From positions 530,945-594,944 of the forward strand of contig NZ_KB903430.1 of NCBI RefSeq assembly GCF_000379765.1: DNA of 64,000 bases. Reading direction: 5' to 3'. A model generated the notes under the pieces. The model ran no database searches and had not been told where the DNA came from. It saw nothing but the letters and a program-made list of their open reading frames with translations. The stretch is from Flexithrix dorotheae DSM 6795 (GTDB lineage Bacteria > Bacteroidota > Bacteroidia > Cytophagales > Flammeovirgaceae). The translations under genes were made by a program, and so were the position numbers. Below are positions 9,760 through 14,441 of the stretch, piece by piece (position 1 is the stretch's first letter; the number at the start of each line of letters is the position of its first letter).

Positions 9760-10338
9760 ATGGTTAAATTGGGCGTATTACTTTTAATCATTTTTATGCA
9801 AACCACAACCCTATTAATAGAAGGTATATTTAATAATACCTTCAATCTCCTGATTATAGTCCTGGCCGGATTAAACACGTATTTCTTTTTTAAAGCCAAC
9901 CATGAAATTCTCCAGTTAAAAAATGATATACTGGCTGGAGAAGATTCTCTACTGGAAAAACTTATTCAAAAAAGAGTAGGGATTCAGGAAGACATTGAGA
10001 AGAGAATAGGCACGAGTTTTAGTAAATGGGAAAATAAATACCAGCAGTCTACCACCTGGTATTATTTATTTAGTAATACCATCAGCATTTTTCCCCTCAT
10101 GGGGATTGCCGGAACAATTTTAGGGATTATTCCTGCCCTAACTGATTTTTCTACTGTAAAGCCTGCCTTCTCTCTGGCACTAACTTCTACCCTGCTGGGC
10201 GTATTTTTTTCTATTGTATTTAAATTATTTGAAGGGAAAGTTTCAGCTAACTATGCATTGGTATCGGAAAGGATGAGCACTTTAACCAAGGATGTAGCCA
10301 GATATCTTATTGAAAAGGAAAGGCCTACAATAGAGTAA
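9760..10338 (+). CDS. MotA/TolQ/ExbB-like inner-membrane proton-channel protein
   Basis: A 192-residue membrane protein with four predicted membrane segments at about residues 3-20, 28-45, 103-126 and 136-157. The polar cytoplasmic loop between segments 2 and 3 contains LEKLIQKRVGIQEDIEKRIG. Segment 3 (FPLMGIAGTILGIIPAL) and segment 4 (AFSLALTSTLLGVFFSIVF) carry the pattern of the ion-channel half of TolQ/ExbB/MotA stators, 'PLLGLLGTV.G' followed by 'AL.tTl.Gl..ai'. The next gene, 59 bases on, is the matching ExbD/MotB-type partner, so the two should form an ion-driven motor unit. It is shorter than ordinary ExbB, and no TonB, Pal or flagellar gene is nearby. Confidence 0.72.
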   Translation: MVKLGVLLLIIFMQTTTLLIEGIFNNTFNLLIIVLAGLNTYFFFKANHEILQLKNDILAGEDSLLEKLIQKRVGIQEDIEKRIGTSFSKWENKYQQSTTWYYLFSNTISIFPLMGIAGTILGIIPALTDFSTVKPAFSLALTSTLLGVFFSIVFKLFEGKVSANYALVSERMSTLTKDVARYLIEKERPTIE

Positions 10339-10397
10339 TTTCTGCTGCATCAACCTTCACTACCATACAATTTTTACTTTTCCGAATCAAAAAGCTG

Positions 10398-11219
10398 ATG
10401 AAATTAAAAAATTTACTTGAACTCACTCCTTTAATAGATGTTTTCCTTATTCTCCTTTTTGTATTTATGATTAATCAAAAGGAAGGAGAGCAAGCCTTTG
10501 AAACAGAAAAAAACCAAATAGAGGGTGAATTAAAAGCCTCTTTGGAAAAACTTGCCGATCAACAACAAAAAAGCCTGGCCTATGAAAGTTCTTTGGACGA
10601 ATCGGAAAGAAAAATAAAAATGTATGAACAGGAACTACTTGCCCAAAAAGAATTGCTGGAAAAAAGTACTGCGGAGATTTCCAGAAAACTTATGGATTTA
10701 TTTGGGCAAACTTCCTACAGCCTTGAAAATAAAGTACTGGATGGTGAACTCACTCCCGATTTTTATTACCAATACCTGGATCAGTTGCAAAACACCGATA
10801 TCGTGGATAGCACTAAAATAATTCAGCAAATTATGGTGCTTGGGGAATTGAAAGCATACTCCACTATTATTAATATATATGTAAATAATAACAACCAGGT
10901 TTTAATCAATGGAAAAACACTTTCCATTTCCTTGGGAGAATTTGATGAAAATACAGGCGACTTTGCACCGGAGATGAAAGAAAGTTTTGAAACAGGACTG
11001 AAAAATGAACTAGAAAACCATTATGAAGTTCAGAAAAAAAGCAGGGAAAAGTTGGGGGAAATAGTAATGATTACATTCGGGCATGCTGAAAAGACCCTTA
11101 CCGGGGTCATCAAATTAACCGATTCAATCAGCAGGGCGTTTTATAGTGAAACCCGACAAATTGAAGGCAATTCCAAAAAGATATTTTACAGTAATTTAGG
11201 TTACTTTCCCTTTCTGTAA
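10398..11219 (+). CDS. ExbD/TolR/MotB-like stator partner with long coiled coil
   Basis: A 273-residue protein with a single membrane segment right at the N-terminus (LTPLIDVFLILLFVFMI). The segment includes the aspartate D14 that ExbD, TolR and MotB use as the ion-carrying residue. A charged coiled coil of about 70 residues (roughly 35-105) follows, then an alpha/beta periplasmic domain with IINIYVNNNNQVLINGKTLS and EIVMITFGHAEKTL. No OmpA-like peptidoglycan-binding domain is evident, which separates it from MotB and from ZorB of the Zorya defence system. It is paired with the MotA/ExbB-like gene before it. What it pushes or pulls is unknown. Confidence 0.7.
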   Translation: MKLKNLLELTPLIDVFLILLFVFMINQKEGEQAFETEKNQIEGELKASLEKLADQQQKSLAYESSLDESERKIKMYEQELLAQKELLEKSTAEISRKLMDLFGQTSYSLENKVLDGELTPDFYYQYLDQLQNTDIVDSTKIIQQIMVLGELKAYSTIINIYVNNNNQVLINGKTLSISLGEFDENTGDFAPEMKESFETGLKNELENHYEVQKKSREKLGEIVMITFGHAEKTLTGVIKLTDSISRAFYSETRQIEGNSKKIFYSNLGYFPFL

Positions 11220-13433: not shown

Positions 13434-14441
13434 ATGCTAAAAGGCGTAAAATATAATAAGATATTCATTCTGGGTGCTGGATTTTCAAAGTCAGTATCCA
13501 CCAATAATCCTACACTTAGTGACCTGACAAATGCCTTAATTCTGGAAAAAGACAAGCACTTGTATTACGATCTGATCCAATTTGTTTCTTCCTTGAATGA
13601 ATTGTCAAATGGGTCGGAAGAAATAATGGAAATTGAAAAAATTGCCACGGTAATTTTATCCAAGAGGCTATTTTATAATAATGAGGAAAAACTACTTTAT
13701 GACAAATTAAGGCATCAGTTACTGGATTGGATTTACAACAAAATAGAGGAAAATTCGCCAAAGGTAGATGATGACAAAAAAGAATTGCTTACCCGGTTTC
13801 TGGATCAGGCCAGTTTTTTAAACAACTCGGAAACACATGCCTCTCCTTCCCTTATGATGACCTTCAATTATGACTTATTATTGGAGCGATTACTGTTTGA
13901 GTTTCAGCAAGAAGACTGGACAATTGATTACATCATCAGGCTGAATAATTACCTGAACAGCTACCCGTCCAATATCGATCTTTCTACCAAAAAAGTATTG
14001 GAATACCTGAAATTACACGGTTCATTCAATTGGTTTGCCGTACCAGGTGCACAGAAAATAGATTTAAGCAATGTCTATCTGGTTTCGGAAAATGATCCCT
14101 CCAGAAATTTAATTCACCAAAGTGATATCCCTGTTTATATTCCCATGGCATTTTCGAAAATGCAATTCCTGAGTGGTTCACTTTATAATGTCATCTGGAA
14201 TATAGCCCAAAGCTATCTGGAAGAGGCATCAGAAATTTACTTTATTGGCTACGGATTTCCACAAACTGATATCGATAACCTGATTTTTTTCCTGAAGTTT
14301 AAATCAAAAATTAAGGATATTGTCATTTATGAGCCACCCGAATCGGAAAAGCTAAAACGACTGAATAAACTTTTCCCAGATTCTAATATTATCAATCAGG
14401 ATGCTTTTCAGTACATTGTAGAGAATCATTTGGGGGAATAA
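13434..14441 (+). CDS. SIR2-like domain protein (possible NADase)
   Basis: A 335-residue cytosolic protein. The NAD-binding motifs of the SIR2-like superfamily are recognisable: FILGAGFSKS at residues 11-20 (the GAGxS loop), TFNYDLLLERL at about 143-153 (the TxNYD motif), LKLHGSFNWF at about 192-201 (the HG motif) and FIGYGFPQTD at about 270-279. The zinc-binding cysteines of true sirtuin deacetylases are absent. SIR2-like proteins of this type include NAD-consuming effectors of anti-phage systems and single-gene proteins of unknown role. No partner gene (TIR, Argonaute, HerA or STAND) is adjacent; scpA is divergent upstream and a Dabb gene convergent downstream. A defence role is possible but unproven. 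Confidence 0.8.
   Translation: MLKGVKYNKIFILGAGFSKSVSTNNPTLSDLTNALILEKDKHLYYDLIQFVSSLNELSNGSEEIMEIEKIATVILSKRLFYNNEEKLLYDKLRHQLLDWIYNKIEENSPKVDDDKKELLTRFLDQASFLNNSETHASPSLMMTFNYDLLLERLLFEFQQEDWTIDYIIRLNNYLNSYPSNIDLSTKKVLEYLKLHGSFNWFAVPGAQKIDLSNVYLVSENDPSRNLIHQSDIPVYIPMAFSKMQFLSGSLYNVIWNIAQSYLEEASEIYFIGYGFPQTDIDNLIFFLKFKSKIKDIVIYEPPESEKLKRLNKLFPDSNIINQDAFQYIVENHLGE

Follow-up and report, generated by a model that had tools for sequence, protein, structure and literature searches.

A lineage-restricted MotA/TolQ/ExbB-type gene pair of Flexithrix dorotheae as a candidate ion-driven motor, with a possible third part encoded elsewhere

A stretch of 64,000 nucleotides from Flexithrix dorotheae DSM 6795 (the window) carries two neighbouring genes, here called A and B, which a preliminary description had read as an ion-motor pair outside any known Tol, Exb, Mot, Gld or Zorya setting, and perhaps as a new type of stator unit. 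The locus raises two questions: whether A and B indeed encode the channel and axle subunits of one motor, and whether such a motor would stand outside the known kinds. In the established model of the 5:2 class, five channel subunits surround two axle helices and rotation is driven by protonation (reviewed in PMC9389320). We compared the genome of the window (G000) with a second genome of the same genus (G001) and with a genome of another genus of the same family (G002), within a survey of 291 genomes of the order. The features discussed below are listed in Table 1.

Table 1. Positions of the two genes, of their predicted parts and of protein C (window coordinates, except for the last line)
Feature	Position	Strand	Description
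Gene A	9796..10338	+	Channel subunit (MotA/TolQ/ExbB family); 180 aa when read from the likely start at 9796
Last two membrane helices of A	10066..10221	+	Channel threonines Thr119 and Thr144
Gene B	10398-11219	+	ExbD/TolR-like axle subunit, 273 aa; ExbD motif below cut-off; orthologues in three genomes
Ion-carrying membrane helix of B	10416..10472	+	Residues 7-25, LELTPLIDVFLILLFVFMI; Asp14 codon 10437-10439
Long predicted helix / coiled coil of B	10476..10739	+	Residues 27-114, AlphaFold2, low confidence
C-terminal periplasmic domain of B	10857..11216	+	Residues 154-273, candidate ExbD/TolR-like fold
Protein C in G000	C1:747709-748206 (L061:9710-10207)	-	Outside the window, adjoins purA

The open reading frame of gene A spans 9760-10338 and encodes 192 residues when counted from the first ATG at 9760, which is the numbering used here. 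Since Met13 matches the first residue of the same-genus orthologue, and homology sets in at this point as well, translation probably starts at 9796, in which case the first 12 residues of the frame would not be translated. The protein passed the Pfam model MotA_ExbB (PF01618; E 5e-11, 42.9 bits against a cut-off of 22.9 bits), and its hydropathy indicated three membrane segments (approximately residues 28-46, 103-126 and 136-154), which is the layout of TolQ and ExbB. The channel motifs that had been noticed in the last two helices were confirmed: Thr119 (codon 10114-10116) and Thr144 (codon 10189-10191) are located in GT-x-x-G and T-x-x-G motifs, both residues were invariant among the three A orthologues, and in an alignment the TolQ-like and ExbB-like paralogues encoded in G000 had both columns in common with A. 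When the profile of A was compared with solved structures, the best matches were MotA chains (E 7e-6), although A has three membrane segments and not four as in MotA; the match to ZorA was weak (E 0.15), as were the tolR and tolQ profile matches obtained for the pair. In its core, A is an ordinary member of the MotA/TolQ/ExbB family.

Gene B lies on the same strand, 59 bases after A, and the gap is kept at 59-61 bases in both genomes of the genus. Its product starts with MKLKNLLELTPLIDVFLILLFVFMI, which corresponds to the ion helix of ExbD and TolR with Asp14, as the preliminary description had recognised; this aspartate was invariant in the three orthologues, and B has one hydrophobic region. 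The match to Pfam ExbD (PF02472, E 8.8e-4) covered residues 7-28 only and reached 19.8 bits, short of the cut-off of 25.4, and none of the three B orthologues gave a full-length match above it (19.8, 21.9 and 22.7 bits). The helix motif was also found in solved ExbD and TolR helices, weakly (E 0.16-0.4). B gave no OmpA match up to an E value of 1, in line with the earlier remark that an OmpA-like domain is missing; the same holds for GldM at that limit, and a search of Zorya profiles with B returned no match.

The AlphaFold2 model of B was built from a three-row alignment and is weak (mean pLDDT 52.5). It contains helices at residues 7-56 and 67-114, both predicted with low confidence; residues 27-114 (88 aa) would extend over about 13 nm if they formed one straight helix, at 0.15 nm per residue. 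The coiled coil proposed earlier is therefore retained in part: a long helix is predicted over residues 7-114, but heptad periodicity was significant in the G002 orthologue only (p 0.0015; p 0.09 and 0.27 in the other two). The periplasmic domain, previously described as unassigned, now has a candidate fold. Residues 155-256 were modelled as strand-strand-helix-strand-helix, mostly at pLDDT 57-84 per ten-residue block and at 41-52 towards the end. Foldseek listed ExbD periplasmic domains for this region (8p9r_A, probability 0.93, TM 0.65 of the target), and VIA superposed the weak model on ExbD 8p9r_B (Z 6.5, rmsd 2.4, 69/73 residues), a score equalled by ribosomal S11 and by other folds. In hhalign, the C-terminal domains of B and of protein C (see below) did not reach significance against ExbD, the alignments being very shallow (3-4 rows, Neff ~1.6-2.0). 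The modelled domain of B is probably ExbD/TolR-like, being consistent with that fold rather than proof of it.

Full-length A and B were present in the same three of the 291 genomes (G000, G001 and G002), and the co-occurrence spans two genera. Full-length relatives were well set apart (E 1.1e-98 or better for A, 3e-133 or better for B), with the remaining matches weaker by many orders of magnitude. Identity to the second-genus orthologue was 46-48% for A and 37-38% for B, and dN/dS between G000 and G001 was approximately 0.03 for A and 0.05 for B, rough values with dS saturated that point to purifying selection. Both open reading frames of the preliminary description are thus borne out, since conservation in a second genus and low dN/dS argue against chance ORFs. 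In G002, where the contig measures 7,664,104 bases, the position of A is 7,170,772 and that of B 1,122,261, which puts ~1.6-1.7 Mb between them on a circular contig and ~6 Mb on a linear one. Both genes were kept in this genome though separated, which argues for a joint function. The same separation could also mean that A and B work apart, each with another partner, and that their adjacency in one genus is due to chance, all the more as other stator parts of the genome could pair with either. We consider this improbable, because both genes occur in the same 3/291 genomes and lie side by side with a nearly constant gap in two genomes of one genus, and because one channel subunit and one axle subunit are the usual complement.

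On these grounds (the family of A, the channel threonines, the invariant Asp14, the co-occurrence despite separation and the purifying selection) we estimate at roughly 0.7 the probability that A and B form a small, lineage-restricted ion-driven motor of the 5:2 class, a figure that does not include protein C. The score of B under the Pfam ExbD cut-off, the tie of its fold match with unrelated folds, the non-significant hhalign comparison with ExbD and the limitation of the co-occurrence to two genera count against this reading. Five A subunits would enclose two B helices as a ring within the inner membrane, and the path of protons (or sodium ions) would lead via Asp14 of B and Thr119/Thr144 of A; protonation of Asp14 against the ring of threonines could then cause rotation, and B would be turned or flexed. 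The long periplasmic helix of B may carry the ExbD/TolR-like domain outward, towards the cell wall or the outer membrane.

Beyond the three genomes, relatives of the pair were scarce. A profile scan of genome contigs with B retrieved only a MAG of the same genus, recorded as Flammeovirgaceae bacterium MAG.050, and no relatives of B were found in plasmids and viral contigs, nor of A in phages. In a survey of the phylum (395 genomes), the matches of B outside its own genome were all partial and N-terminal, and those inspected were mostly ExbD-like; a weak match within G000 (C7) was rejected as a relative, being a two-component sensor. The class survey for A yielded weak matches in one genus only, and the two loci inspected were ExbB genes in ExbB-ExbD-ExbD clusters. 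MoxR identity to genus g1 is higher for genus g8 (86%) than for genus g2 (78%), which places g8 nearer to g1, yet A and B were undetected in g8. The pair is in this sense patchy, which may reflect loss or transfer of the genes, or the incompleteness of some genomes.

The claim that the pair stands outside the settings of known motors agreed with our analysis of the neighbourhood. In Pfam scans that covered 40 other window proteins, no component of the Ton (TonB), Tol-Pal (TolA, TolB, Pal), Gld, flagellar or Zorya systems was named; no Zorya-type helicase or nuclease lies next to the pair, and no ZorC or ZorD was found. Beside the A and B orthologues, no tolB/pal or gld genes were recognised when the neighbourhoods were read by eye, and A itself falls in the motor family and not in an unrelated one.

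Of the known systems, ExbB-ExbD of the Ton system is similar in having a three-helix channel subunit with an Asp-bearing single-helix partner, and its periplasmic fold is probably common to B. A and B could be taken for an additional energiser of the TonB type, in which a diverged ExbB-ExbD pair would power TonB-dependent import with the help of a TonB whose gene lies elsewhere; the model of the B C-terminal domain is compatible with an ExbD domain, the canonical ExbB-ExbD-ExbD set of the genome is separate from A and B, and in G002 the gene of a SusC-like TonB-dependent receptor precedes B on the same strand. We regard this as unlikely. The receptor is 328 bases from B and is absent beside the pair in G000 and G001, no TonB was found among the scanned window proteins, and the long helix of B is unlike the short ExbD linker. 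B also has about twice the length of ExbD and scores below the Pfam ExbD cut-off, and the two genes are split in G002. TolQ-TolR has the same architecture and ion motif, but no tolA, tolB or pal was found near A and B, and another TolQR-like pair is present in the genome. GldL-GldM of the T9SS and gliding machinery is likewise an ion motor of Bacteroidota whose periplasmic axle is long, from which the present pair differs in the lack of a GldM domain match in B and of any named gld gene in the window, as it differs from MotA-MotB in the lack of an OmpA-like domain match. ZorA-ZorB is also a motor-type pair, but the resemblance stops at the weak ZorA match.

The preliminary description had also drawn attention to a MoxR ATPase gene, which does begin 237 bases downstream of B on the same strand, with the spacing kept in the second genome of the genus. 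This arrangement would suit an operon-like unit of A, B and MoxR, with MoxR as a chaperone or assembly ATPase. Such a unit is very improbable, because a MoxR orthologue is present in 18/18 family genomes, whereas the pair is present in 3, the G002 MoxR lies at 2.96 Mb, apart from A and B, and the g8 MoxR has other neighbours; in addition, there is a promoter-like match between B and MoxR, found near the chance rate. On distribution and neighbourhood, MoxR was rejected as a third component and is a bystander, not part of the motor system. In G002, we also noticed a gene for an ArsA/Get3-family ATPase 12 bases upstream of A (locus L054:7582-9321), possibly in one operon with it in that genome only; it was not retained as a companion of A, as A has no such neighbour in G000 or G001.

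Another candidate for a third part came from G002, where a gene for a protein of 184 aa, here called C, starts 226 bases after B on the same strand. Its orthologues of 165-166 aa adjoin purA in G000 and G001. C consists of one membrane helix, a linker that the model leaves unstructured, and a domain (residues 99-165) with pLDDT of ~90. This domain matched ExbD with a Foldseek probability of 1.00 and a VIA Z of 10.6 (rmsd 1.6, 67 residues); the VIA list was headed by seven ExbD/TolR rows (Z 10.6 to 7.6), followed by the next unrelated row at 6.7. The periplasmic domain of C, as confidently modelled, is of the ExbD/TolR fold. The membrane helix contained no aspartate in the three complete orthologues, and thus C has a periplasmic domain of the axle type but not the ion site. 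NCBIfam gave C no name, Pfam matches were at chance level only, and dN/dS between G000 and G001 (~0.11, rough, with dS saturated) pointed to purifying selection.

C was present in 4/291 genomes of the order, namely the three that carry A and B, and G008. C is linked to the pair by its fold, by its place next to B in one genome and by co-occurrence across two genera, and we put the odds that it is their partner at about even, since many genes may be specific to these genera and C occurs in G008, where neither A nor B was detected (there C lies at a contig end, in a genome that is 92% complete and in 650 contigs). That C is unrelated, using the TolQ or ExbB of the genome or no channel at all, has in our view somewhat less than an even chance: its place beside purA in two genomes and its occurrence in G008 fit this explanation, but its place beside B in G002 and its confinement to so few genomes, three of them the A/B genomes, do not. 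If C is a partner of A and B, it could contribute to a mixed axle bearing a single ion site, or act as a force receiver or anchor at the edge of the ring. The fuller proposal, a motor of three parts scattered over the genome, with A as a minimal ExbB-like ring, B as a long-shafted axle and the Asp-less C as mixed axle or force receiver, is tentative and we lean against it. In G000 we also observed the T9SS genes porV (~4.5 kb away) and porU (~6 kb away) in the vicinity of C; a connection with PorU/PorV was dropped, as several genes intervene there and C is not beside PorU/PorV in G002.

With regard to the second question, the term "new type of stator unit" proved too strong. The core of A is ordinary, and PMC12505986 and PMC12204202, in the portions available to us, already describe diverse non-flagellar TolQR-like pairs with extra domains, among them generic ion transporters and vWA force-transducer motors, although no DUF or vWA domain was found in A or B. 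PMC12505986 treats non-flagellar motors with varied appendages as a diverse group with largely unknown roles, and PMC12204202, a recent study of envelope force transducers, states that further systems driven by 5:2 motors are still to be found. A and B are a new lineage-restricted variant among the known non-flagellar motors, not a new category. An Asp-less protein with an ExbD domain, such as C, is not described in these portions of the two papers. Together with C, the pair offers a testable Bacteroidota case in which rare genes are kept together across genomes even where they lie far apart; if C pairs with B, it would allow a test of whether both axle strands need the aspartate, and the three-part proposal, if true, would describe an ion motor whose parts persist together after gene separation.

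Other stators are encoded elsewhere in the F. dorotheae genome, and A and B would therefore be an additional motor. These are a TolQR-like pair (C2) and the canonical ExbB-ExbD-ExbD set (C91), beside which an ExbD-like stretch (C91:134592-134855, minus strand) was observed in a multi-helix membrane protein of ~520 aa. Further stator parts were found on C47 (L145:2961-5138), where a 432-aa MotA-like protein with a weak ZorA2 match precedes a 274-aa protein whose start resembles an ion helix and no ZorC/D genes were seen alongside, and on C42 (L147:36-3374), where a MotA-like gene lies within a gene cluster. The latter cluster presumably resembles a cobaltochelatase-like/DUF2149 arrangement. Within the window itself, positions 13434-14441 encode a stand-alone SIR2-like domain protein with 93% identity in the same-genus genome.
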